DNA of 64,000 bases from Aquabacterium humicola (lineage in GTDB: Bacteria > Pseudomonadota > Gammaproteobacteria > Burkholderiales > Burkholderiaceae_C): the NCBI RefSeq assembly GCF_030167915.1, contig NZ_JARGNB010000008.1:248001-312000 (forward strand), written 5' to 3'. The notes beneath the pieces are model-generated. The model saw only the letters and a list, made by a program, of their open reading frames with translations. It searched no databases and was not told the origin of the DNA. Shown piece after piece: positions 1,536-30,356 of the stretch. Each line of letters starts with the position of its first letter. Within the stretch, counting starts at the first letter, position 1. Position numbers and translations under genes: made by a program.

Positions 1536-2510
1536 ATGGCCATCACCACCGCGACGATGAGCACCGACGACGTCAGTGCGCGCGACAAGCTGCCGTACTG
1601 GCGCGACTGGGTCTGGAAGCTGTTCGGCGGGCTCGATTCCGACCTCTACGGCGACACGGTGTTCGACGGCCGCATCAGCACCACGCGCGCCGGCCCGGTG
1701 GTGCTGACGCGGCTGGAATCCGGCCGCCACCGCGTGATGCGCACGCAGTCGCTGGTGCGGCGCAGCGAAGAGGGCTACCTCAAGATCGTCGCGCCGCAGC
1801 GCGGCTGCGCCGGCGTCGAGCAGTTCGGCCGCCAGGCCTGGGTCGGGCCCGGCGAATGGAGCCTCTACGACACCACCCAGACCTACGCGGTTGCCAATCC
1901 CGAGCCGGTGGAGCACCTGATCGTGATGGTGCCCAAGGCCGACCTGGCCGAGCGCGGGCTCAACCTGACGGAACTGGTCGCGCGGCCGCTGGGTGGCGGC
2001 CACGGCATCGCGCGGCTCGCGCTGCAGACCATGCGCAGCGCCTACCAGGAACTGCCGGACATGGGCGACGAGGCCGCACGCGGCGTCGGCGCGGCGATCA
2101 CCCAGCTGGTGCACCTGTCGCTGCTGGACCTGGCCGGCCACGGCACCGCGCTGACGCAGCGCGAGGCGCTGCGCGACCGCATCAAGCAACTGGTCGCGCA
2201 CCGGCTCGGCGATCCGTCGCTCGGCGTCGAGGACATCGCGCTCGCGCTGCGCTGCAGCCGGCGCCAGCTGTACAACGCCTTCGCCGACGAACCCGAGGGC
2301 GTGGCGGGTTATCTGCTGCGCGAGCGCCTGGAGGCGGTGCGGCGCGACCTGGCCGATCCGGCGCAGATGGGGCGATCGATCACCGACATCGCGCTGGATC
2401 GCGGCTTCAACAGCCTGCCGCATTTCAGCCGCGTTTTCGCGCAACGCTTCGGCGTGCCGCCGAGCGTGTATCGGCGGGAGGGTTACGGCCAGGCGGTGCT
2501 CGTGCGCTGA
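1536..2510 (+). CDS. AraC family transcriptional regulator
   Basis: A 324-residue regulator with an N-terminal AraC-binding-like cupin region (about residues 15-190, including WVGPGEWSLYDTTQTY) and a C-terminal double helix-turn-helix (about 225-318, including IALALRCSRRQLYNAF and ITDIALDRGFNSLPHFSRVFAQRFGV in pieces). The second HTH keeps the family signature of G-F, then SRVF, then G-P-P-S-V-Y-R. The ATG at 1536 follows AGGGAG with a suitable spacer; an in-frame start at 1518 has no such site. It is divergent from the orphan binding-protein gene at 139-1344, with about 190 bases between the two starts, so that gene is the most likely target. The inducer cannot be inferred. Confidence 0.85.
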   Translation: MAITTATMSTDDVSARDKLPYWRDWVWKLFGGLDSDLYGDTVFDGRISTTRAGPVVLTRLESGRHRVMRTQSLVRRSEEGYLKIVAPQRGCAGVEQFGRQAWVGPGEWSLYDTTQTYAVANPEPVEHLIVMVPKADLAERGLNLTELVARPLGGGHGIARLALQTMRSAYQELPDMGDEAARGVGAAITQLVHLSLLDLAGHGTALTQREALRDRIKQLVAHRLGDPSLGVEDIALALRCSRRQLYNAFADEPEGVAGYLLRERLEAVRRDLADPAQMGRSITDIALDRGFNSLPHFSRVFAQRFGVPPSVYRREGYGQAVLVR

Positions 2511-2576
2511 CAGCGCCGCCTGGCGGCGGTGCTTGTGCGCTGATGCGCCGATCCGCCCGCCGCGTCGGCCGGCGGG

Positions 2577-2789
2577 TCAGTCCCGCAGCTTCTTGCCGAT
2601 GATCTCGACCGTCTGGACCATGCGGTGACCGACGATCACCACCTGCTGGGCCACCTGGTCGCTGGCGCGCGCCAGCATGTGGTAGGCCCCGTCGCGACCG
2701 CCGAGATGCGTGATCCCGAGCAGCATGAGGAAGGTGATCGCGATCGCCGAGCCGACGGCGAGCGGATGCGTGTAGAAGCGCCTGAACAT
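2577..2789 (-). CDS. small single-pass membrane protein, VVIVGHR family
   Basis: A 70-residue protein starting MFRRFYTHPLAVG, with one hydrophobic helix (about residues 11-27) and an amphipathic C-terminus carrying VVIVGHR and then VEIIGKK. The ATG is preceded by GGAGG. It resembles the 61-residue product of 23880-24065: both begin MF(R/K), have T and A-G positions before the helix, LAR in the middle and VVIVG(K/H)R near the end. Both genes also have a TGTCGC-N17-TA(T/C)AGT promoter. The frame continues upstream without a credible start. I do not recognise a named family; this is an expressed-looking conserved small protein of unknown role, possibly in the inner membrane. Confidence 0.7.
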   Translation of the reverse strand: MFRRFYTHPLAVGSAIAITFLMLLGITHLGGRDGAYHMLARASDQVAQQVVIVGHRMVQTVEIIGKKLRD

Positions 2790-2826
2790 GGCAGCCTCCG
2801 TCGAGGGAAAGCCCCCTCTGGGGAGG

Positions 2827-2855
2827 ACTATAGGCCTGTCATGCGCTTTGCGACA
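2827..2855 (-). promoter_or_regulatory. putative sigma-70 promoter of the small membrane protein gene
   Basis: On the minus strand, TGTCGC (2855-2850) and TATAGT (2832-2827) are separated by exactly 17 bases and lie 38 bases before the ATG at 2789. The same arrangement, TGTCGC-N17-TACAGT, precedes the paralogous gene at 23880-24065. This is a sequence reading only, without transcript data. Confidence 0.5.
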
Positions 2856-2958
2856 GTGCTGCGGCGCGGGCGAGCGGAAGCGGCTTTGACGCAGCGCATG
2901 GCGGCGCGCGCGTGCGCGCCGGGCACGGCGGTGGTGTCGGCGCGGTCCCTGCGTGCGC

Positions 2959-4518
2959 TCAGCGCGCGAACAGCCCCTGGTGCTGCTCGCGCAGCAGGTT
3001 CTTCTGCACCTTGCCCATCGCATTGCGCGGCAGCTCGGGCTCGACGAAGACCTGTTTGGGCACCTTGAAGTTGGCGATGCGGCCCTTCAGCGCGCCGACG
3101 ATGGCCGCGGGATCCAAGGTCGCGCCCGGCTTGGGCACGACGACCGCGATCACGCCTTCGCCGAAGTCCGGATGCGGCAGGCCGACCACCGCCGATTCGG
3201 CGACGCCGGGCATCTCGTTGATGAAGCCCTCGATCTCGGCCGGATAGACGTTGTAGCCGCCGCTGATGATCAGGTCCTTGCTGCGGCCGACGATGCTCAG
3301 GTACCCGCGCTCGTCGAAGCGGCCGACGTCGCCGGTCTTGAACCAGCCGTCGGCGGTGAACTCTTCCTTGGTCTTCTCCGGCATGCGCCAGTAGCCGGAG
3401 AAGACGTTCGGGCCGGTGACCTCGATGCCGCCGATCTCGCCCGTGGGCAGCGTCGCACCGGGCTTGGCGGGATCCGCGATGCGCACGCTGACGCCCGGCA
3501 GCGGGAAGCCCACGGTGCCGGCGCGGCGCTCGCCCTCGACCGCGTGGTACGGGTTCGAGCTCAGCATCACCGTCTCGCTCATGCCGTAGCGCTCGAGGAT
3601 GGTGTGGCCGGTGCGTTCGCGCCACGCGTCGAAGGTCTCGGGCAGCAGCGGTGCCGAACCGGCGATGAACAGGCGCATCGAGCGGCAGACCTCGCGGTTC
3701 AGCCGCTCGTCGGCCAGCATGCGCACATACAGCGTCGGCACGCCCATGAACACCGTGGCCTCGGGCAGCCGGCTGATCACCGCCGCCGGGTCGAAGCGGT
3801 TGAACCAGATCATCCGGCTGCCGTTGAGCAGCGCGCCGTGCGAGGCGACGAAGAGGCCGTGCACATGGAAGATCGGCAGCGCGTGGATCAGCACGTCGCC
3901 TGGTTTCCAGCCCCAGTAGGCCTGCAGGGTGCGCGCGTTCGACAGCAGGTTGCCGTGGCTCAGCATCGCCCCCTTGCTGCGCCCGGTGGTGCCGCTGGTG
4001 TAGAGGATCGCCGCCAGCTCGTCGGCCTGCCGGTCCACCGGCTTGTGCTGGTCGCTGCAGTGCGATGCCCGTTCGAGCAGGCTGCCCGAGCGGTCGTCGC
4101 CCAGCGTGAAGACATGGCTGACGCCGGCCTTGAAGGCGATGCGGCTGACCCACGCGAAGTTCTTCGGCGTGCACACCACCACCGCCGGCTCGGCGTTGCC
4201 GATGAAGTACTCGATCTCGGCCGCCTGGTAGGCGGTGTTCAGCGGCAGGAAGACATGGCCGGCGCGCAGCACCGCCAGGTACAGCATCAGCGCCTCGACG
4301 CTCTTGTCGACCTGCACCGCGATGCGCGTGCTCGCGGGCAGGTCCAGCCCCTTCAGCAGGTTGGCGAGCATCGCGGTGCCGCGCTCCAGGTCGCGCCAGG
4401 TGTAGTGCGCCGGCGTGAAGGGCTGGCCGGCGGGGCCGTCGGCCGTCTCGATCGCCACCGTGTCGAGGTCGGCGGGGAACGCGGCGCGCAGCGCCGAGAA
4501 GAGGTTCTGGTCGTTCAT
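2959..4518 (-). CDS. matB: malonyl-CoA synthetase (malonate--CoA ligase)
   Basis: A 519-residue member of the ANL (acyl/aryl-CoA ligase) superfamily that activates malonate with ATP and CoA to malonyl-CoA in the cytoplasm. It follows rhizobial MatB closely over its length as I recall that sequence: ILYTSGTTGRSKGAMLSHGN (P-loop about 171-190), the ALPIFH(V)HGLF stretch, LFIAGSAPLL, ERYGMSET, and a C-terminal PRNAMGKVQKN with the adenylation lysine near residue 503. It is last of the operon matR-matA-Bug-matB, 19 bases after the binding-protein stop. Neighbouring malonyl-CoA decarboxylase makes the malonate assignment strong; a general short-chain acyl-CoA synthetase is the alternative. Confidence 0.93.
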   Translation of the reverse strand: MNDQNLFSALRAAFPADLDTVAIETADGPAGQPFTPAHYTWRDLERGTAMLANLLKGLDLPASTRIAVQVDKSVEALMLYLAVLRAGHVFLPLNTAYQAAEIEYFIGNAEPAVVVCTPKNFAWVSRIAFKAGVSHVFTLGDDRSGSLLERASHCSDQHKPVDRQADELAAILYTSGTTGRSKGAMLSHGNLLSNARTLQAYWGWKPGDVLIHALPIFHVHGLFVASHGALLNGSRMIWFNRFDPAAVISRLPEATVFMGVPTLYVRMLADERLNREVCRSMRLFIAGSAPLLPETFDAWRERTGHTILERYGMSETVMLSSNPYHAVEGERRAGTVGFPLPGVSVRIADPAKPGATLPTGEIGGIEVTGPNVFSGYWRMPEKTKEEFTADGWFKTGDVGRFDERGYLSIVGRSKDLIISGGYNVYPAEIEGFINEMPGVAESAVVGLPHPDFGEGVIAVVVPKPGATLDPAAIVGALKGRIANFKVPKQVFVEPELPRNAMGKVQKNLLREQHQGLFAR

Positions 4519-4537
4519 GTCGTGGTGCCGCTGGATC

Positions 4538-5530
4538 TCAGTCGAGTTTCGCGCCGGAGCTCTTCACGACTTCATGCCAGCGCTTGACCTCGCTGGAGAC
4601 GAACTTGCCGAAGTCCGGTCCCCAGCTGTTCGGCGGGTTCGCGCCCAGGCCGGCCCAGGTGGCCTTCAGCTCGTCGGAGTTCAGCGCCTTCTTCATCTCG
4701 GCGATCATCGCGTCGACCGCCTCCTTCGGCGTGTTCTTCGGCGCCCACAGGCCGTACCAGGTCGCGACCTGGTAGGTCGGCACGCCGCCCTCGGCCGCGG
4801 TGGGCAGGTCCGGGAAGCCGGGCGCGCGCTTGTCCGACGCGACCGCGATCGCCTTGATGCGGCCGCCCTTGATGTGGCTGGCCGACGAGCCCAGGCCGTC
4901 GAACATCATGTCGACCTGGCCGGCGATCAGGTCCTGCAGCGCCGGGCCGGCGCCGCGGTACGGGATGTGGGTGACGAAGGTCTTGGTCTGCAGCTTGAAC
5001 AGCTCGCCGGCCAGGTGGTGCGAGGTGCCGTTGCCGGCCGAGCCGTAGTTGACCTTGCCGGGGTTCTTGCGCAGGTGCTCCAGCAGGCCCTTCAGGTCGT
5101 TGACCGGCAGCCGCTGCGGATGCACGACGATCACCTGCGGCACGCTGGCGATCAGGCCCACCGGCACGAAGTCGGTCTCCAGCTGGTAGTCGAGCTTCGG
5201 GTACATCGACGGGGCGATCGCGTGGTGGACCGCGCCCATGAAGAAGGTGTAGCCGTCGGGCGCCGCGCGCGACGCGAGGCTGGCGCCCACCGTGCCGCCG
5301 GCGCCGCCCTTGTTGTCGATGATGAACTGCTTGCCGGCGTTCTTCGACATCATCGCGAACAGCGGCCGCGCGAAGGCGTCGGTGCCGCCGCCGGCGGGGA
5401 AGGGCACGACGATGGTCACCGGCTTGACCGGCCAGGCCTGCGCGAGCGCGGAGCCCATCGGCAGCGCGGCCAGGCTGGCAGCAGCGGCGGCGCACAACAG
5501 ATGGCGACGGGCGGAAGATCGAGCAGTCAT
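4538..5530 (-). CDS. Bug/TctC family tricarboxylate-type substrate-binding protein (probable malonate receptor)
   Basis: A 330-residue exported binding protein of the tripartite tricarboxylate transporter receptor family. A signal peptide spans about residues 1-30 (ending ALAQAWPVK). The typical start of the mature protein follows: KPVTIVVPFPAGGGTDAFARP. GG-AGGTVGAS and the IPYRGAGPALQDLIAGQVDMMFD region are standard Bug features. It sits between matA and matB in one operon, which points to malonate or a related dicarboxylate as ligand. No TctA or TctB membrane genes are present here, as is common for Bug proteins in Burkholderiales, so it may borrow a transporter encoded elsewhere or act as a sensor. 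The ATG at 5530 is preceded by GGAGACACC. Confidence 0.88.
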   Translation of the reverse strand: MTARSSARRHLLCAAAAASLAALPMGSALAQAWPVKPVTIVVPFPAGGGTDAFARPLFAMMSKNAGKQFIIDNKGGAGGTVGASLASRAAPDGYTFFMGAVHHAIAPSMYPKLDYQLETDFVPVGLIASVPQVIVVHPQRLPVNDLKGLLEHLRKNPGKVNYGSAGNGTSHHLAGELFKLQTKTFVTHIPYRGAGPALQDLIAGQVDMMFDGLGSSASHIKGGRIKAIAVASDKRAPGFPDLPTAAEGGVPTYQVATWYGLWAPKNTPKEAVDAMIAEMKKALNSDELKATWAGLGANPPNSWGPDFGKFVSSEVKRWHEVVKSSGAKLD

Positions 5531-5572
5531 GGTGTCTCCGTTGTGAAGTGTTGTCGGGAACGTAAGGGGCCG

Positions 5573-6877
5573 TCAGAGCAGTGATCCGACGGCGCGGGAA
5601 TGCACGACGCGGCCATGCACGAAGCGGTCGTGGCAGGTCTCGATGCGGGCCAGGTCGTAGAGGTAGTTGACCATCAGGCCGGCGGATTGTTTCAAGCCCT
5701 TGGCCGACAGGTTGGCGCGCGGGTTCAGGCGCTCCAGCCGCGCGCCGTTGTCGAGGTGGAAGCGCGCCACCGGATCGCCCTGCGGCAGGGGCGAGGCATG
5801 CACCAGGTAGTGCGCGGCCAGCGTCATCAGCGCGGCCTGGCCGTCGTCGTTCAGCGCGTCGAGGCCGGCCGTGGTGGTGATCGCATGCAGGTCGTCGCCG
5901 GCGGCGGCGCGCAGCGCGGCCAGCGTCTGCGCGGCGGCCGCGGCCGCCGGCGCGGGCAGTGCGGCAAACGTGTCCTTGGACTTCTGCAGCCAGGCCATCA
6001 GGCCGGGAATCGGCGACAGCGTGCAGAAGGTCTTCAGCTGCGGCAGCTCGCGCTTGAGCTCATCGGCGACGCGCTTGATCAGGAAGTTGCCCAGCGACAC
6101 GCCGCGCAGGCCCGGCTGGCAGTTGCTGATCGAATAGAAGACCGCCACCTTGAACTGCGAAGGCTCCAGCGGCGCCGACTTCTTGTCGATCAGCGGCGCC
6201 ACCGCCGCGGCCATCTCCGGCACCAGCGCCACCTCGACGAAGATCAGCGGCTCGTCCGGCAGCTGCGGATGGAAGAACGCGAAGCAGCGGCGATCGGGCT
6301 GCAGGCGGCGGCGCAGGTCGTCCCAGCCGTCGATCTCGTGCACCGCCTCGTGCCGGATGATCTGCTCCAGCAGCTGCGCCGGCGAGTTCCAGTCCACCCG
6401 CTTCATCTGCAGGAAGCCCGGGTTGAACCAGCTCGACAGCAGGTGCAGCAAGTCGTTCTCGACGCTGGCCAGCGCGCGCTGCTTCGGTAGGCGCTCGAGC
6501 AGCGCGCGGCGCAGCCGCACGATCGCGCGCGTGCCGCCCGGCGCGCGGTTCAGGCGCCGGAACAGCTCCTGGCGCGGCGGCTCGGCGGCCTGCGTCAGCT
6601 GCAGCAGGCGCTGCGGATCGGTCGGCGTCTGCGCATAGGCCTGCGCCGCGGCGAGCACCTGCTGCACGTCGGGGCCGAAGTCCTGGGCCAGGTGCTCGAA
6701 GAAGCCCAGGCGCTGCTCGTCGGTCAGGTGGTCGAGCTCGCCGACGATGTCCGTGGCGATGGCCGGGCTGTTGGCCTCGCCGCGCTCGGAGAGCAGGCGC
6801 CGGCAGTCGCCGAGCAGCGCGCGCACCGCACGTTCGCTCTGCACGCGCCGCGCGGCGGTTCGCAGTTGTTCAAGCAT
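5573..6877 (-). CDS. matA: malonyl-CoA decarboxylase
   Basis: A 434-residue cytoplasmic enzyme that decarboxylates malonyl-CoA to acetyl-CoA. It has the two-part family build: an all-helical N-terminal region (about 1-170) and a GNAT-like catalytic region. Recognisable family motifs are FFHPQLPDEPLIFVEVAL, the FYSISNCQPGLRGVSLGNF stretch holding the catalytic serine region, LKTFCTLSPIPGL, and FHLDNGARLERLN holding the catalytic histidine. Its first eight bases overlap the end of the GntR gene, so translation is coupled. With MatB it converts malonate to acetyl-CoA. The length matches bacterial members. Confidence 0.94.
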   Translation of the reverse strand: MLEQLRTAARRVQSERAVRALLGDCRRLLSERGEANSPAIATDIVGELDHLTDEQRLGFFEHLAQDFGPDVQQVLAAAQAYAQTPTDPQRLLQLTQAAEPPRQELFRRLNRAPGGTRAIVRLRRALLERLPKQRALASVENDLLHLLSSWFNPGFLQMKRVDWNSPAQLLEQIIRHEAVHEIDGWDDLRRRLQPDRRCFAFFHPQLPDEPLIFVEVALVPEMAAAVAPLIDKKSAPLEPSQFKVAVFYSISNCQPGLRGVSLGNFLIKRVADELKRELPQLKTFCTLSPIPGLMAWLQKSKDTFAALPAPAAAAAAQTLAALRAAAGDDLHAITTTAGLDALNDDGQAALMTLAAHYLVHASPLPQGDPVARFHLDNGARLERLNPRANLSAKGLKQSAGLMVNYLYDLARIETCHDRFVHGRVVHSRAVGSLL

Positions 6878-7568
6878 GCTCTTTGCGTCCCTTTCGTGGC
6901 CGAGCCTGCTCGCTGCGTTGCAGCGCCTTCAGGGCGGCGAGCTGCGCCATCAGGTGGTCGTGCATCGCGCGCTCGGCGCGTGCGGCGTCGCGCTGCTCGA
7001 TGGCGTCGAGCAGCACGCGGTGTTCGTTCAGCGAGGCGGCCAGGCGTCCGTCGAGCTTGAGCTGGCGGCCGCGCCACAGCCGCATGAAGCGCCGCAGGTC
7101 GCCGGCGACGCGGTCCAGCCAGCGGTTCGCGGCCAGGCGCTGCACGGTGGAGTGGAAATCGTGGTTGGCGCGGTAATAACCGTCGATGTCCCCGGCCGCG
7201 GCATGGCGCTCGAGCGCCTCGTGCAGCCGGCGCAGGTGCAGCAGATCGTCATCGGTGGCGCGCTCGGTGGCTTCGAGCGCGCAGCGGCCCTCGAGCATCG
7301 CCATCACCGGGAACAGCTGCTCGGCATCGGCATCGGTCAGCTCGATCACGCGGCAGCCGCGCCGCGGCACCAGCTCGACGAGGCCCTCGGCCGCCAGCAC
7401 CTTCAGCGCCTCGCGCAGCGGCGTGCGGCTGATCTGCCAGGCCGCCGCGAGCTTGAGCTCGTCGATGTACTCGCCCGGGGCCAGCTCGCGCTCGAAGACC
7501 ATCGTGCGCAGCCGGGCGGCGACGCCGTCGTGCAGCGAGGTGCCGCGCAGGGGGACCGGTTCGACCAT
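6870..7568 (-). CDS. matR: GntR family (FCD domain) regulator of malonate catabolism
   Basis: A 232-residue regulator. The winged HTH (about residues 8-75) shows the GntR signature LKLAAAWQISRTPLREALKVL and VELVPRRGCRV. The helical FCD effector domain follows (about 85-215), with the metal-site residues expected in the D-x-x-F-H, E-H and H-D-H positions. The ATG at 7568 was chosen; an in-frame TTG at 7604 would place the N-terminus over the likely operator. It overlaps matA by eight bases and heads the operon. By analogy with MatR of Rhizobium it probably represses mat genes and is released by malonate. Confidence 0.85.
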   Translation of the reverse strand: MVEPVPLRGTSLHDGVAARLRTMVFERELAPGEYIDELKLAAAWQISRTPLREALKVLAAEGLVELVPRRGCRVIELTDADAEQLFPVMAMLEGRCALEATERATDDDLLHLRRLHEALERHAAAGDIDGYYRANHDFHSTVQRLAANRWLDRVAGDLRRFMRLWRGRQLKLDGRLAASLNEHRVLLDAIEQRDAARAERAMHDHLMAQLAALKALQRSEQARPRKGRKEHA

Positions 7569-7579
7569 GCGGCGCACTG

Positions 7580-7600
7580 TAATCCTGTAATTACGTGATG
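7580..7600. promoter_or_regulatory. candidate MatR operator
   Basis: The palindrome GTAATTAC (7587-7594) lies 19 bases before the matR ATG, with a second GTAAT half reading TGTAATCC at 7579-7585 (as ACTGTAATCC). FadR-subfamily GntR proteins bind short A/T-centred palindromes, so this is a reasonable autoregulatory site. The rest of the gap to ydcS (to 7776) has no other clear feature. Confidence 0.4.
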
Positions 7601-7776
7601 ACAAGAAAACTTCTGCGCATCGAGGGGCGCGAATCGGCGGCCAGTCGTTCTGATTCCGCTAGGGCTTACCCCAGGTATCTCGAAAAGAGAGAGCTCGCCG
7701 GCGTTCGATTGCATTTCACAGGGGCCCGGCCCGCGCCGGAAGATCCGCGCCTCGCGCCACCAGCCGGAGAACGCTC

Positions 7777-8958
7777 ATGCGCCGATCCCAGATCCCGTCG
7801 CTCCTCCCTTCGTTCCTTGCCGCCGCGGCCCTGGCCGCCTTCGCCTCGCACGCCGTCGCCCAGAAAGGCATGCTGCAGAAGCTGGGCAAGGGGGAGGGCA
7901 AGGTCGACATCGTCGCCTGGCCGGGCTACATCGAACGCGGCCAGACCGACAAGGCCTTCGACTGGGTCACCGGCTTCGAGCAGAAGACCGGCTGCAAGGT
8001 CAACGTGAAGACCGCCGGCACCTCCGACGAGATGGTCGCGCTGATGAACGAGGGCGGCTTCGACCTCGTCACCGCGTCGGGCGACGCGTCGACCCGCCTG
8101 ATCCGCGGCAAGAAGGTGCAGCCGATCAACACCGCCCTGATCCCGAGCTACAAGAACATCGATCCGCGGCTGCAGAAGGCGCCCTGGCACTACGAGAACA
8201 ACACGCACTACGGCGTGCCCTACCAGTGGGGCTGGAACGTGCTGATGTACAACACGACGGTCTTCAAGGACAAGGCGCCGACCTCGTGGAGCGTCGTCTT
8301 CGAGGAGCAGAACCTGCCCGACGGCAAGAGCAACAAGGGCCGCGTGCAGGCCTTCGACGGGCCGATCTACATCGCCGACGCGGCGCTGTACCTGAAGGCC
8401 AAGAAGCCAGAGCTCGGCATCAAGGACCCCTACGAGCTGACCGAGGCGCAGTACAAGGCCGCGCTCGAGCTGCTGCGCGGGCAGCGCAAGATCGTCGGCA
8501 AGTACTGGCACGACGCCTTCGTGCAGATCGACGACTTCACCAACGAGGGTGTCGTCGCTTCGTCGAGCTGGCAGTTCCAGGCCAACATCCTCGGCTCGAA
8601 GAAGCGGCCGATCGCCACCGTGGTGCCGGTCGAGGGCGCCACCGGCTGGGCCGACTCGACGATGCTGCATGCCGACGCGAAGAACCCCAACTGCGCCTAC
8701 ATGTGGCTGGAGCACTCGCTGAACCCGAAGCTGCAGGGCGACCTCTCGGCCTGGTTCGGCTCGGTGCCCTCGGTGCCCGCGGCCTGCAAGGGCAATGCGC
8801 TGCTCGGCGACGAGGGCTGCAAGCGCCAGGGCTACGAGTCCTTCGACAAGATCTCGTTCTGGCGCACGCCGGTGACGCAGTGCGCCTCGCAGGGCAACCA
8901 GTGCGTGCCGTACCACAAGTGGGTGTCGGACTACATCGCGATCCTCGGTGGCCGTTGA
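7777..8958 (+). CDS. ydcS: YdcS-type polyamine-like ABC transporter substrate-binding protein
   Basis: A 393-residue periplasmic binding protein with a cleavable signal peptide (about 1-28, ASHAVA then QKG). It is colinear with Escherichia coli YdcS as I recall it: VDIVAWPGYIERGQTDKAFD, KTAGTSDEMVALM, LVTASGDAS, VQPINTALIP, EQNLPDGKSNKGRVQA, GPIYIADAAL, TGWADSTMLH and a C-terminal DYIAILGGR. It is followed by ydcTUV-like transporter genes and an aminobutyraldehyde dehydrogenase, so putrescine or a related amine is the probable ligand. In E. coli, YdcS has also been reported to have polyhydroxybutyrate synthase activity. The upstream gap to the divergent matR holds the promoter. Confidence 0.93.
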   Translation: MRRSQIPSLLPSFLAAAALAAFASHAVAQKGMLQKLGKGEGKVDIVAWPGYIERGQTDKAFDWVTGFEQKTGCKVNVKTAGTSDEMVALMNEGGFDLVTASGDASTRLIRGKKVQPINTALIPSYKNIDPRLQKAPWHYENNTHYGVPYQWGWNVLMYNTTVFKDKAPTSWSVVFEEQNLPDGKSNKGRVQAFDGPIYIADAALYLKAKKPELGIKDPYELTEAQYKAALELLRGQRKIVGKYWHDAFVQIDDFTNEGVVASSSWQFQANILGSKKRPIATVVPVEGATGWADSTMLHADAKNPNCAYMWLEHSLNPKLQGDLSAWFGSVPSVPAACKGNALLGDEGCKRQGYESFDKISFWRTPVTQCASQGNQCVPYHKWVSDYIAILGGR

Positions 8959-24211: not shown

Positions 24212-27200
24212 TCAGTCCTGGAAGGCGCCGACGCGGAATTCGCCGACCCGCACGTCCTCGCCGCTGCCGGACAGGCGCAGCATCACGCGCTGCTCCTTCT
24301 CGGCCGCGGTGCCGAAGCCGGTGACCAGGCGCAGCATCAGCGTGGTCGCCGGCGCCAGCACCTGCTGGCGGTGGCCGTAGAAGCGGGCTCGCACGCTGTA
24401 GACGCCGGGCTTGGGCGAGCGCAGCGCGAACTCCTCGGGACCGTAGCCGCCGGTGAAGTCGGCGGACATGCGGCCGCCCTGGCGCGTGCGCGGCCGGCCG
24501 TAGAAGGCTTCCTCGCCATCGGGGTCGACCACGTGCAGGTCGATGTCGGTGTTGTCGGCATCCCAGCCGAGCACGACGCGCAGGCCGAGTGGCATGTGCA
24601 CCAGCAGGCGCGGGTCCATCGCCGCGGTGTCCACCGGCTTGCCGGCGCGCGCGGCCTTGGCGACCAGCGCGTTGAGCTCGGTGACCGCCGTCAGGTCGAT
24701 GTCCGGGAAGCGGCCCTGCAGGTTGCCGCGGTGCGTCGCGGCCTGCCACAGCGCGTCGGCGGCGCCTTGCCAGCGCTGCGCATCGGCCAGCGCGAGACCC
24801 AGGTCGCGGCTGGATTGCGGCTCGTGCGGCGCGATCGCCAGCACGCGCTCGAACACCGGCACCGCCAGCTCGGCCCGCTCGGCCTGCAGCAGCCGGTAGC
24901 CCAGGATGCGCAGCAGCGAACGGTTCTCCAGTTCCATCTCGGCCAGGTTCGACAGCACGCGCACGCCGAGCGCCGCGTCGCCCTGCTGGAAGAACAGGTC
25001 CGCGGCATCGAGGAAGAACGCGGTGCTCTTCAGGTGCTGCGGGCGTTCGTCGAGGTAGACCGCATAACGCTCTTTCGGCGCGGCCGCGCGCAGGCGGCGG
25101 GCCGAGGGCGTATCGGGCTGCCAGCGGGCCAGGGCGATGGCGGCCGGCGCGGCTTCGCCGCCGGCCGGGGCCTGGCGGGCGTCGGCCGTTGCATTGGCCG
25201 CGCCCCGCAAGGCCGGCGCTGCGGCCAGGGCCGACGGCATCGCCATCGGCGCCGGCGGCGCGACCGGTGCCACCGCAGCGGCCTGCGCGACCGGCGCGGC
25301 CGGCGCGGCCGGGCGCGCCGCTTCGGCGCTCTTGGCCGCCTCCCGCGGGCCGGCCGCGGCCGCGAGATCGCGCCGGGCCTCGGCCCGTTCCTGCAACGCG
25401 CCGATGGCAGCCGTCGCGGTGTCGGCCTCGCGCTTGCGCGCGATCGCCGGGTCGTCCTTCGGGAAGCTCGTCGCCCACCAGCTCTGGCGCTCGCGGAAGC
25501 GCCGCACCAGGTGCTCGATCTGGTCGCGCTGCTGGCGCTGCTCGCCGGCGATCACCGTCGTGCGCTGCTGGTGCCAGGCGGTGCGCAGCGGGCCGGCCGG
25601 CGGCTCGATGCCGTGGCGCACGTAGTCGGCCAGGTTGTCGAGCACGATCAGCGAGGTCTCCGGCGTCGCCAGCCCGAAGCGCTGGCCGATGCGCTGGATC
25701 TCGCGCTGGTGCAGCTTCGGCTGCCCGGCCAAGGCGTCGAGCTTCAGCGTCGCCCAGCGCAGCGCGGGCAGCGGCGGGCTCGAATCGTCGTCCGGCAGCG
25801 CGGTGCCCGGCGGCACGCCGACCGGCGGCAGCGTCGCGGCGCCGGTGTCGGCCGCGGCCGACCAGCGCACGCGCTGCACGTCGACGCCGCGGCCGGGCAG
25901 CTCGAAGCGCGCTTCGAGCACGCCTTCGGCCGCGTGCGCGATGCCGGCCACGGCGAGCCGGCCGTGTTCGGCCGTGCGCGACGCGGCCACCCATTGCGCG
26001 CCGTCGCGGCTGCGCAGCTCGATCAGCCGCGGCAGCTCGTGCGCGATGCGATGCGCGGCCCGCGGCGCCGGCAGCGACAGCAGGTCCAGCACCGCGCCGC
26101 CTTGCGGCTCGACGGCGGCCCGCAGCGCGGCCGGCGCGCTGCCGATGGCCGACTGCAGCACGAAGGCCGGCAGGCCGAACACCGGCGGCGTCGGTGCGCC
26201 GAAGGTCGACTGGCCGTCGCTGAAGACGAGCGCGAGGTCGGCCGATCCGGCGGCCAGGTTGATCGCGCCCAGCTGCGTCGCGCCGTCGAAGGGTTCGGCC
26301 TCGATCGCCTGGCGCAGCGCGGTCCAGTCGCCGCCGCGCACGCTGAAGGCGCGCGCCGGCTCCAGCCGGTCGCGCAGCACGTGCAGCTGCACCTGCACCG
26401 ATGGCCAACGCGCAAAGACAGCGTCCAGCAGCGCCCATTCGGCCGCGCGCTGGCGCTGGGCGCCGGAGCCCGATGCATCCCAGACCAGCGCGATGCGCTT
26501 CGGCGCCGCGCGCGGGCGTTCGATCGCCGGCACCGGCAGCTCGGCATAGACGAAATGCTGGCCGTCGAAGGCCGCCGCCTGCACCGGCGCCGCGGCCGGC
26601 GCGGCGTAGCGCAGCTGCAGCTCGACCGGCTGCTTCAGCGCACGCGGCGCGATCAGCAGCCGCGTGCCGCCGGGCGCGCCGGCGTCGACCTGCAGCGTGC
26701 CGGCCGGCAGCCCGTGGGCGATCGCCTTCAGCCCCGCGCGGTCGACGCCCGCGAGCTTCAGCGACAGCTCGGCGCGCGCCGCGCCGCCGTCGAATCCGAA
26801 GGGCAGGCGCAGCTCGTTGGCCGTGCCCGGCGGCAGCGCCTGCACCAGGTCCATCACCACCGTGCGCTGGCCGTTCGGCGGCAGCGGGTAGACGCGCAGC
26901 TTGTACTGGTTGCCGGCGGTGGCTTCGAGCAGCGCCGGGTCGATGCGGCCGCGAATGGTGTCCTCGAAGACCTGCAGGCCCTTGGCCTTCTCGACCGGCA
27001 CCGCGCGGCGCAGCTGGCCGTCGATGTCCAGCGAGAAACCGGAGACCACCGCGCCGTCGGGCAGCGGGAACTGCAGCTCGCCTTCGAGCACGCGCGGGTT
27101 CGGGTTGTGGAACTGCAAGGTCAGCCGCGTCAGCACCGAGCGGCCGATGACCTCGGTGTCCTGGCGGTAATGGCGCAGCTCGATCGGCTGGCCGGCACCG

Positions 27201-27376
27201 GCCGGCACGACGAAGCGCGGCAGTGCCAGCGGGGGTGGTGTCGCCACCTTGGGCTGCGGCGGCGTCAACGCCTGCGCGAGCGGTACGGCGGCGATCGAGA
27301 GCGCAGCGAGCGCGGCGCGCGCGAGGCCGCGGCGGGTGAGGGCAATGAACGCAGGGATTCGGTGGGGGTCGGGCAT
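24212..27376 (-). CDS. exported VIT / von Willebrand A / DUF2135 domain protein
   Basis: A 1054-residue protein. The N-terminus has a Tat-like or Sec signal (RRGLARAALAALSIAAVPLA, about 15-36). A VIT domain follows (about 60-165; SVLTRLTLQFHNPNPRVLEG, FPLPDGAVVSGFSLDIDG). A vWA-like region begins near 290 (KRIALVWDASGSG) with a divergent metal site. An Ala-rich linker occupies about 660-750. A TPR-like stretch around 800-890 precedes a C-terminal DUF2135 domain (LGWDADNTDIDLHVVDPDGEEAFYG, in pieces). Proteins of this build are large envelope proteins of unknown role, possibly scaffolds. The ATG at 27376 follows AGGAGACC. No partner genes adjoin it. Confidence 0.85.
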   Translation of the reverse strand: MPDPHRIPAFIALTRRGLARAALAALSIAAVPLAQALTPPQPKVATPPPLALPRFVVPAGAGQPIELRHYRQDTEVIGRSVLTRLTLQFHNPNPRVLEGELQFPLPDGAVVSGFSLDIDGQLRRAVPVEKAKGLQVFEDTIRGRIDPALLEATAGNQYKLRVYPLPPNGQRTVVMDLVQALPPGTANELRLPFGFDGGAARAELSLKLAGVDRAGLKAIAHGLPAGTLQVDAGAPGGTRLLIAPRALKQPVELQLRYAAPAAAPVQAAAFDGQHFVYAELPVPAIERPRAAPKRIALVWDASGSGAQRQRAAEWALLDAVFARWPSVQVQLHVLRDRLEPARAFSVRGGDWTALRQAIEAEPFDGATQLGAINLAAGSADLALVFSDGQSTFGAPTPPVFGLPAFVLQSAIGSAPAALRAAVEPQGGAVLDLLSLPAPRAAHRIAHELPRLIELRSRDGAQWVAASRTAEHGRLAVAGIAHAAEGVLEARFELPGRGVDVQRVRWSAAADTGAATLPPVGVPPGTALPDDDSSPPLPALRWATLKLDALAGQPKLHQREIQRIGQRFGLATPETSLIVLDNLADYVRHGIEPPAGPLRTAWHQQRTTVIAGEQRQQRDQIEHLVRRFRERQSWWATSFPKDDPAIARKREADTATAAIGALQERAEARRDLAAAAGPREAAKSAEAARPAAPAAPVAQAAAVAPVAPPAPMAMPSALAAAPALRGAANATADARQAPAGGEAAPAAIALARWQPDTPSARRLRAAAPKERYAVYLDERPQHLKSTAFFLDAADLFFQQGDAALGVRVLSNLAEMELENRSLLRILGYRLLQAERAELAVPVFERVLAIAPHEPQSSRDLGLALADAQRWQGAADALWQAATHRGNLQGRFPDIDLTAVTELNALVAKAARAGKPVDTAAMDPRLLVHMPLGLRVVLGWDADNTDIDLHVVDPDGEEAFYGRPRTRQGGRMSADFTGGYGPEEFALRSPKPGVYSVRARFYGHRQQVLAPATTLMLRLVTGFGTAAEKEQRVMLRLSGSGEDVRVGEFRVGAFQD

Positions 27377-27511
27377 GGTGGTCTCCTCGTCGGATACACC
27401 TTGCACGGCCGGCCGGGCCGAACGGGGTTAGCCCGCGATGCTGGTCGCTTCGACTGTTCTCGGCCCGTTGCGGGCGTTCGTGCTGAGACCTTGCGTGCTT
27501 GCACCGAGCGC

Positions 27512-27638
27512 GCCAAGGCCACTGGGTGCCCGGCTCCGCTCATGTCCCCCGGGCCGTGCGCCGCCGATACGCCTCAGGCCGCATCCCGGCCGGCCCTCCT
27601 CCTTGACTTCGCTACGCCGGGCACCCAGCGCCCTTGGC
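27512..27638 (+). repeat. structured repeat element, copy 1
   Basis: Outer arms 27512-27534 and 27616-27638 are inverted repeats (21 of 23 positions pair). Between them is an 81-base core that begins TCCGCTCATGTCCCCC and ends in CCTCCTTGACTTCGCT. Copy 2 at 27682-27809 has the same core ends in the opposite orientation but quite different outer arms that also pair. The middle 28-29 bases differ between copies. The 498-base gap 27377-27874 holds only these elements and no gene I can support. Confidence 0.75.
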
Positions 27639-27681
27639 TCATGCGACACCGTGGCGTGCGATCCCTTGCCAGGGCGGAGCG

Positions 27682-27809
27682 GATCAGGACGGCGGGGCGC
27701 TCTGTGGAGCGAAGTCAAGGAGGAGGGCCGGCCGGATTTCCGCCATGGCGTCACAGCGCAGCCCGGCCCGGAGGACATGAGCGGAACAGAGCGCCCCGCC
27801 GGCCTGATC
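27682..27809 (-). repeat. structured repeat element, copy 2 (inverted)
   Basis: Outer arms 27682-27705 and 27786-27809 pair at 23 of 24 positions and are unlike the arms of copy 1. The core (27706-27785), read on the minus strand, begins TCCGCTCATGTCCTCC and ends CCTCCTTGACTTCGCT. The last 28 bases of its conserved part (27708-27735) are an exact inverted copy of 27586-27613. It lies 66 bases after the metF stop codon, so it could also end metF transcription. Confidence 0.75.
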
Positions 27810-27874
27810 TTCCACGGTGCATGCATGCGGCACGTGGCGACCGTCCGCGACGGGGCGAGAACGGCAGTACGGGG

Positions 27875-28740
27875 TCAGTCCACCTTCGTCGTGCCGAAGC
27901 CCAGCCGCCGCCCGATCTCCAGCGTCAGCGCAGACTGGTTCAGCGCATAGAAGTGGATGCCCGGCGCGCCGCCGGCGATCAGGCGCTCGCACAGCTTCGT
28001 GACGACGTCGAGCCCGAAGGCGCGGATCGATGCGGCGTCGTCCATGAAGCCTTCCATCTTCAGCGCCACCCAACGCGGGATCTCGATGCCGTCCCGCGCC
28101 GCGAACTGCGCCACGCGCGAGAAGTTGTGGAACGGCATCACGCCCGGCACGATCGGCACGTCCACGCCCATCGCCCGCACTTCGTCGACGAAGTGGAAGT
28201 AGGCGTCCGGGTTGAAGAAAAACTGCGTGATCGCCGAGTTCGCGCCGGCCCGCACCTTGTCGGCGAAGTGCTGCAGGTCGCGCCGCGCGTAGCGCTGCTC
28301 CGGGTGGTACTCGGGGTAGGCGGCGACTTCGATCAGCCAGTCGGGCCCTTGCGTCTCGCGGATGAATCGGATCAGCTCCGCGGCATAGCGGAACTCGCCG
28401 GCGACGGCCGTGCCCGAGGGCAGGTCGCCGCGCAGCGCAACGAGGCGGCGGATGCCCTGCGCGCGGTAGGTGCGCAGGATCTCCGCGATGCCCTCGCGCG
28501 TCGAGCCGACGCAGGACAGGTGCGGCGCGGCCTCGAAGCCGGCTGCGGCAATGTCGCGCACGGTGGCCAGCGTCTTCTCGCGCGTCGAGCCGCCGGCGCC
28601 GTAGGTGACGCTGAAGAACTCCGGCTTCAGCACCGAGAGCTCCTGCACCACCGTCTTCAGCTTCTCGCTGCCGACGGGGGTGTTCGGAGGGAAGAACTCG
28701 ATGCTGACGGGCAAGTCGGGATGAGCGTTGCCCATGGCCA

Positions 28741-28741
<1 letters not shown>
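27875..28741 (-). CDS. metF: 5,10-methylenetetrahydrofolate reductase
   Basis: A 288-residue FAD enzyme reducing methylene-THF to methyl-THF for methionine synthesis. Motifs seen: SIEFFPPNT near the start with the active-site Glu, FFSVTYGAGGSTR, PHLSCVG, LVALRGDLP, IEVAAYPEYHPE, and ITQFFFNPDAYFHFVDE, then the PGVMPFHNF region. The length is normal for bacterial MetF. The ATG overlaps the ahcY stop (TGATG), so the two are coupled; a second ATG lies six bases inside. With ahcY it is under the SAH riboswitch, linking methyl supply to removal of S-adenosylhomocysteine. Confidence 0.96.
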
Positions 28742-30192
<1,451 letters not shown>

Positions 30193-30273
30193 GGGTCTAA
30201 CTCCAGCGGTTGAAAGCCGCAGCGACCTGATGGCAAGGGGTTCTGAAATTTCACCCACCCACGGCCGTTGCGG

Positions 30274-30356
30274 GGTGAGCGCCGTTGCACGTGAACGTGG
30301 TTTCGAGCCTGGGGCCGACGCCGGGTCGGTCGGCCTTGCAACGCTCCTCGAAACGG
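30274..30356 (-). promoter_or_regulatory. SAH riboswitch
   Basis: Read on the minus strand, CCGTTTCGAGGAGCGTTGCA is followed by a variable G+C-rich hairpin (GGCCGAC/GTCGGCC) and CCAGGCTCGAAA, and then by TGCAACGGCGCTC. TTTCGAG (30353-30347) pairs with CTCGAAA (30307-30301) as stem P1, and GAGCG-TTGCA pairs with TGCAA-CGCTC downstream as the pseudoknot-type helix. This matches the SAH riboswitch class known upstream of ahcY in beta- and gammaproteobacteria. It lies 81 bases before the ahcY ATG and probably activates ahcY-metF when SAH is high. Confidence 0.93.

Follow-up and report, generated by a model that had tools for sequence, protein, structure and literature searches.

What are the two inverted hairpins that lie between metF (MTHFR, 27875-28741, - strand) and a VIT-domain protein gene (24212-27376, -) in Aquabacterium humicola, and in which strand does their folding matter? 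The first-pass annotation of the window (the whole 64,000-nt stretch of DNA analysed here) described two inverted copies of a repeat whose core is conserved and whose bracketing stems differ and still pair, which it took for the signature of a structured RNA or of a DNA element recognised as a hairpin. Its coordinates, cores, and stems held on rereading; by eye, the copies have 21 of 22 bases in common at one core end and an exact 28 at the other.

Architecture and copies of the composite element

The two copies are the halves of a single composite element of ~407 bp (27456-27862), made up of two hairpins, a spacer, and imperfect inverted outer ends. Half B (27512-27638, + strand; match to model R1 at 27505-27645, +, 105.3 bits) carries its pyrimidine core on the + strand and its purine core on the - strand. 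Its outer stem (I5) pairs a 5' arm at 27512-27534 with a 3' arm at 27616-27638 (23 nt, 91% complementary), and between these lie the core ends TCCGCTCATGTCC at 27535-27547 (G000:C43:275535-275547) and CTCCTTGACTTCGCT at 27599-27613 (G000:C43:275599-275613), all read on the + strand. Beyond the spacer (27639-27681), half A follows in the inverted orientation (27682-27809, -; R1 match at 27676-27815, -, 117.9 bits); read on the - strand, its outer stem (I3) has its 5' arm at 27786-27809 and its 3' arm at 27682-27705 (24 nt, 96% complementary), with TCCGCTCATGTCC at 27773-27785 (G000:C43:275773-275785) and CTCCTTGACTTCGCT at 27708-27722 (G000:C43:275708-275722). Both hairpins were delimited by arm pairing and R1. 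The halves are inverted copies of one another (I1, 81%; I2, 78%). In tests against dinucleotide shuffles, which covered both strands as DNA and the purine-core strand as RNA, their folding has z-scores between -4.0 and -6.2. At the outer limits, the end motif GTTCTCGGCCCGTTGCGGGCGTTCG at 27456-27480 (+) pairs with its counterpart at 27838-27862 (-), the two being 84% complementary (I4). Sequence conservation among the 16 copies in this genome extends ~45 bp outside the hairpins, where the imperfect inverted ends CGGCCCGTTGCGG are common to them; the span of the window element was set accordingly.

The earlier description of two copies was right as to the repeat; the copies, however, are halves of one composite repeat that is found 16 times. 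In the 7.39-Mb genome, the core end TCCGCTCATGTCC has 15 forward and 15 reverse occurrences, against 0 + 0 for the reversed 13-base control. These matches fall mostly into inverted pairs ~238 bp apart, 28 of the 30 forming 14 such pairs and the other 2 having a partner half that bears an insert; two of the 16 elements carry an insert in one core and one is truncated. Such an exact-pattern search is biased toward intact cores. An R1 scan, with 150 of 13,012 candidates scored, returned 29 matches above 100 bits and, below them, the two insert-bearing halves and opposite-strand echoes only. The stems, which had been called unrelated, do differ and do pair, but they belong to two recurring types, A (GATC...; in this genome GATCAGGCC...CTCTGT) and B (GCCAAGG...; in this genome GCCAAGG...CCCGGC), which reappear as types in other genera and, by eye, have a GGG.G/C.CCC patch in common. 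Identity among the own-genome copies (L006 left out) is 96-99% in the stems and 97-100% in the cores, 69-78% in the apical loops, 77-84% in the spacer-side flanks, and 57-61% in the outer flanks, a pattern more suggestive of constraint at the individual loci than of decay following a jump.

An autonomous element was sought by following the end motif to contig ends, and a second double-hairpin family was found instead. Exact matches to CGGCCCGTTGCGGNC number 16 in the genome, of which 5 are at ends of the window-element family, 10 belong to the second family, and 1 was left unread; only these exact places are meaningful, as allowing one mismatch gives 28 + 23 places against 25 + 24 for the control. 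The second family, with the core GCGCCGTCCATTTAGCTTC...GAGTCAGTTGTCGA, occupies 17 places (L171-L187), among them contig ends of G000 and C4:73665-74002 and C42:318262-318597, and has the outer end motif in common with the first; in places that retain both sides, the double-hairpin design is also the same by eye. Ten of the 17 places are close to a contig end, so the family seems to break the assembly. Several genera also have a nested module, which is built from a free stem of its own plus a 27-bp palindrome of fixed sequence (CACAAACAGTCCACTGGACTGTTTGTG) and enters the hairpin core in the same region. It lies in the core before TCCCCCGG in five loci (palindrome at L001:1235-1261, L028:1753-1779, L151:1735-1761, L271:1698-1724, and L272:1588-1614), with a different left boundary in L271 and L272, and is also present in an element resembling the second family (L062:6140-6166); neither an exact-match scan of viral contigs nor a BLAST search of plasmids returned an instance of it.

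Covarying stems and the strand that folds

In the hairpin of each half, an outer stem of 24 bp encloses an internal loop and then an inner stem, both stems being free in sequence. Scanning named genomes with a pattern gave 40 stretches, 38 of them real (from Rubrivivax MAGs, Rhizobacter, Aquabacterium terrae, and other Burkholderiales); L060 and L061 were chance pattern matches lacking stems and were dropped. The covariation alignment (A1) comprises 40 of the 67 distinct real units. In these 40 units the internal loop between the helices, CGCTCATGTCC / CTTGACTTCGC, is invariant, as follows from the scan pattern, which required those loop sequences; units found as mates or by the model carry core variants, and in several the loop reads CGTTCATG / ACTTCAC, a C-G pair within the core having become T-A (by eye). 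Across the 24-bp outer helix, 93.1% of cells are paired and 20 of the 24 pairs have changed on both sides with pairing kept, and 7 of the 8 inner-helix pairs have changed on both sides. Pairing over the whole structure amounts to 90.3%. Shuffles give 66.1%, none of the 500 reaching the observed value, and slid controls give 35.9-47.8%; the covariation score was likewise reached by 0 of 500 shuffles. One of five covariation measures, the number of further pair types, runs opposite (51 vs. 58.7 in shuffles). In a single genome, G217, nearly the same core is enclosed in eight copies by stems that all differ, and in each of these stems 21-23 of the 24 pairs are Watson-Crick. The covariance model and covariation test that the first-pass annotation recommended yielded strong, significant covariation, which strongly supports its proposal that a conserved core with a covarying stem marks an element recognised as a folded strand. 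Covariation as such does not tell RNA from single-stranded DNA.

The kind of mismatch tolerated in the stems distinguishes the two strands. On the strand as written, the outer-stem mismatches of 98 distinct arm pairs from 125 units comprise 113 A.C and 17 G.T (L052 and L070:2184-2312, which have shifted or broken arms, were left out of these counts); when equal local contexts are collapsed, the numbers are 87 and 16 (p = 5e-13 if contexts are independent), and the inner helix has 14 and 2. The A.C excess is seen in 26 of 29 informative genome or genus groups, with 2 ties (p = 1.5e-5), after merging of overlapping groups and of the identical units L058 = L132 and L063 = L133 (30 of 33 before merging); the three groups of opposite sign are Rubrivivax MAGs with a short 62-nt core. 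Since A.C on the written strand is a G.T or G.U wobble on the purine-core strand, these data indicate that it is the purine-core single strand that folds. Mutation alone should give no such bias, because G-to-A on one arm and C-to-T on the other are the same event on two strands; any preference introduced by a model derived from the written strand would be expected to run towards G.U on that strand. The near-absence of G.U from the written strand had been considered as a sign of double-stranded DNA, an idea dropped since the A.C mismatches are G.U on the other strand. The SAH riboswitch was tried as an RNA control for wobble (39 Watson-Crick, 2 G.U, 2 A.C, and 4 other pairs); it has too few variable pairs to be informative, so the wobble test stands here without a positive RNA control.

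The bias is independent of the direction of transcription. In tandem gene contexts, A.C:G.T is 40:5 where the purine strand is sense and 37:4 where it is antisense. A function in read-through mRNA would be expected to make these ratios differ, and their equality argues against a cis mRNA role; single-stranded DNA, or separate RNAs made from each half, would leave them equal.

Distribution, insertion sites, and the search for a mobiliser

R1 matches were found in 116 of 299 sampled genomes of the family, representing 65 of its 141 genera, and in 19 of 399 genomes of the order, from three families only, the home family and two others (f1, 7; f13, 10; f21, 2); copy counts from these scans, which scored 10 (family) or 8 (order) first-look candidates per genome, are lower bounds. 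A scan of ten genomes, with 150 of 1,829-8,903 candidates scored per genome, gave 142 matches, or 136 halves once 6 opposite-strand echoes are subtracted, at least 2-29 per genome. With the 16 elements of A. humicola itself, these are the further copies and the copy numbers for which the first-pass annotation had suggested looking, and neither of the findings that it named as contrary (no other copies in relatives, flanking stems that do not pair) was encountered. Seventy-six of the 136 halves form 38 adjacent pairs, every one of them inverted (33 +- and 5 -+), with 21-49 nt separating the R1 matches; 60 have no detected neighbour, and in G174 the start of a diverged mate is legible by eye. 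One direct (++) pair was seen outside the ten genomes (L068:7341-7480 and 7564-7687, in the Rubrivivax MAG JAIXRN). A plasmid and phage search with the window element gave no match; four plasmid records carry a short relative.

Gene context was assigned with a simple purpose-made gene finder, checked on the window, for 71 rows (16 own-genome, 28 named-genome, and 27 family loci, one convergent locus being counted twice). Forty-six rows are tandem, 16 convergent, and 2 divergent, 7 are unclassified, and none lies within a gene. Many copies in other genera are only 20-50 nt from both neighbouring genes. Three copies in G174 (L223, L225, L226) follow a terminator-like hairpin and T-run by tens of bases (by eye), which may reflect an insertion preference.

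Comparison with a congener, G143, gives an occupied and an empty site: the same neighbour genes are present there without the element, with 229 vs. 657 bp between the matches (sequence read). For 16 other congeners with a long metF match, the match ends at the gene. The repeat flanking the window element is imperfect (19 nt, 79%), and comparison with the G143 empty site revealed no exact target duplication. G143 has about a dozen BLAST matches of its own subfamily (seven read). When 13 G143 stretches were set against the 16 own loci, two sites (L004/L270 and L022/L272) were occupied in both species, in each species by its own subfamily and in one case in the opposite order. This suggests persistence with conversion, or hot spots; shared sites, together with the high identity of stems and cores, point to homogenisation within genomes or to constraint at each locus.

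The first-pass annotation also advised looking for a RAYT-type transposase. Y1_Tnp was not detected in the A. humicola genome or in 10 of 35 other carriers searched (11 of 36 in all: both genomes searched from the own genus, all three searched from g60, all three from g103, and G096, G266, and G020). It was detected in the other 25 of 36; among 10 loci fetched from 30 Y1_Tnp matches, none had an R1 match in the 1.5-kb flanks. Mobilisation by a RAYT is unsupported in the own genome and weakened, though still conceivable, in general. Foot motifs were scarce: among 100 units, the 12 nt next to the stem contain GTAG in one unit on the left and one on the right, and CTAC in 1 and 3; a CGTC foot was seen in 3 (left) and 8 (right). 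L070, in which the halves are 2.1 kb apart, was considered as an autonomous element, but its half-A arm is broken and it was judged an interrupted element; by eye, the gap holds ORFs resembling IS fragments and a toxin-antitoxin pair.

Candidate explanations and relation to known systems

The repeat is a composite, multi-copy intergenic element, mostly in inverted pairs, with covarying stems, a fixed core, and a constraint on the folding of one strand. Integron attC sites are likewise strand-specific single-strand hairpins that have free stems and fixed motifs; in the present element it is an internal loop that is fixed. REPINs, or REP doublets, are described as inverted pairs of short extragenic repeats. 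They are predicted to fold when single-stranded, show compensatory changes in the hairpin, have no coding capacity, and are thought to be moved in trans by RAYT (TnpA-REP) transposases (PMC3116915, PMC6006769). The present element resembles REPINs so described in its inverted hairpin doublet (38 of 38 adjacent pairs in the ten genomes, with the direct pair L068 elsewhere) and in its extragenic location (0 of 71 rows inside a gene, 7 unclassified). It differs in that each half by itself forms a hairpin of 100-140 nt, in which a 24-bp stem of free sequence encloses an invariant internal loop, in the lack of a GTAG foot, in the 11 of 36 carriers in which Y1_Tnp went undetected and the 10 Y1_Tnp loci that are not hairpin-flanked, and in having at least 2-29 halves per genome. 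As defining features of the RAYT-REP system (a GTAG foot, and a RAYT gene that is present and flanked) did not hold up on testing, we do not file it as a member. CGTC-tagged palindromic repeats form dimers, often from two unlike units, and are reported to do without a transposase dedicated to them (PMC3733652); they are similar in these respects; the element here is much larger, lacks a regular CGTC foot, and has a different core. IS200/IS605-type elements, as outlined in PMC6006769, have strand-specific subterminal hairpins of single-stranded DNA at their ends; the hairpins here, by comparison, are mutually inverted with a spacer of only 33-61 nt between them. A word search of one open library found no description of the hairpin family, which seems to be undescribed.

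Our preferred reading, which we regard as marginally probable, is that of a REPIN-like, strand-specific, nonautonomous mobile hairpin pair whose mobiliser in this genome would be something other than a detectable Y1/RAYT transposase. Besides the inverted pairs, the covariation, the strand bias, and the intergenic sites, the empty site in G143 and the second family of like design speak for it. Since the hairpins are inverted, either DNA strand, when single, would present one active (purine-core) hairpin; a single-strand-specific enzyme acting in trans would recognise the invariant internal loop between the two free-sequence, paired stems and copy or move the pair into intergenic gaps. The folded strand would then be single-stranded DNA rather than RNA, and the folding constraint would serve mobilisation. 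Several observations sit poorly with this proposal: the search for a mobiliser gave none (in the 25 of 36 carriers with Y1_Tnp, a RAYT acting at a distance is conceivable), the flanks show no clean target duplication, the own-genome conservation looks like constraint at each locus, two sites are occupied in both A. humicola and G143, the strand bias also suits RNA made from each half, and there are single halves, a direct pair, and three Rubrivivax groups of opposite sign. If the REPIN-like reading holds, inverted single-strand hairpin pairs persist without a detected RAYT, and an enzyme that recognises an internal loop is predicted. In any case, this is a widespread repeat with very clean covariation, in which A.C vs. 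G.T mismatches provide a simple readout of the folding strand. With somewhat less confidence than an even chance, we also entertain the idea that such strand-specific mobile hairpins make up a modular class apart, with machinery of its own, to which at least two core families of the same design and end motif in one genome, together with the nested module, would point.

A structured noncoding RNA, in which the purine strand of each half (5'-GCGAAGUCAAGGAGG...GGACAUGAGCGG-3') is transcribed divergently from the spacer and bound by protein, appears unlikely to us, with roughly one chance in a handful. The conserved internal loop between two covarying helices, the tolerance of G.U on the purine strand, and an optional extra module within the loop all suit an RNA, and by eye the loop admits an arrangement of GC/GC, tandem G.A, and GUC/GAC, of which RNAalifold also gives the GC and GUC pairs. 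However, two promoters would have to fit into the ~33-61 nt between the stems (gaps + 12), single halves lack a detected mate, the element occurs patchily in few to dozens of copies per genome, and an informal look noticed no conserved neighbour gene. Rfam likewise offers no match, in keeping with the first-pass annotation, which could name no family; its RNA alternative is neither borne out nor removed by this, or by a strand bias that ignores the direction of transcription. At the gathering score, Rfam 15 matched the window only elsewhere, at a SAH riboswitch; 20 related loci gave two matches, both outside the hairpins; and a relaxed search returned microRNA models only, far below their thresholds. 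The riboswitch (RF01057, 63.4 bits) is at 30270-30355 on the - strand, upstream of ahcY and ahead of metF. An AAGGAGG...ACAUG string on the purine strand was considered as a Shine-Dalgarno sequence and start codon and dropped, G217 and some cores having no AUG. Were the RNA reading correct, the element would found a new structured RNA family with few to dozens of copies per genome.

REP/BIME and NEMIS repeats have been proposed to act in mRNA, and a comparable cis element between co-directional genes (a processing site, stabiliser, or bidirectional terminator) is less likely again. All 16 own-genome elements lie between tandem genes, divergent gaps are rare (2 of 64 classified rows), and stems and core are strongly constrained in this genome; a hairpin half (L260:1482-1597) on the Burkholderia anthina plasmid NZ_CP071828.1, typed as conjugative, sits between co-directional 2-hydroxymuconic semialdehyde dehydrogenase and alpha/beta hydrolase genes, two catabolic genes; and, leaving A.C and G.T aside, halves with the purine strand in the mRNA have somewhat fewer mismatches than antisense halves (24 vs. 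37, p = 0.07). Such a role is nevertheless hard to reconcile with the equal A.C/G.T bias of the two mRNA readings, with the even split of own-genome elements between A-first (8) and B-first (8), and with the metF neighbourhood of G143, which does without the element. A MITE, moved by a DDE insertion sequence through recognition of the outer end motif and with the hairpins as passengers or cruciforms, is improbable in spite of the imperfect inverted ends in the own genome and the same end motif in the second family, given that many copies lie 20-50 nt from genes with little room for an end motif, that the hairpins are far better conserved than the ends, that a double-strand palindrome predicts no strand bias, and that the only flanking repeat is the imperfect 19-nt one, with no clear target duplication.

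Two departures from the usual arrangement were observed in individual genomes. All four pairs detected in G149 (genus g21) are everted, -+ rather than +-. Some units in the Rubrivivax MAG JAIXRN (L037, L038, L040, L056) combine arms of the two stem types, the left from one and the right from the other, and stay paired mainly in the inner part of the stem, an apparent outcome of recombination between halves.
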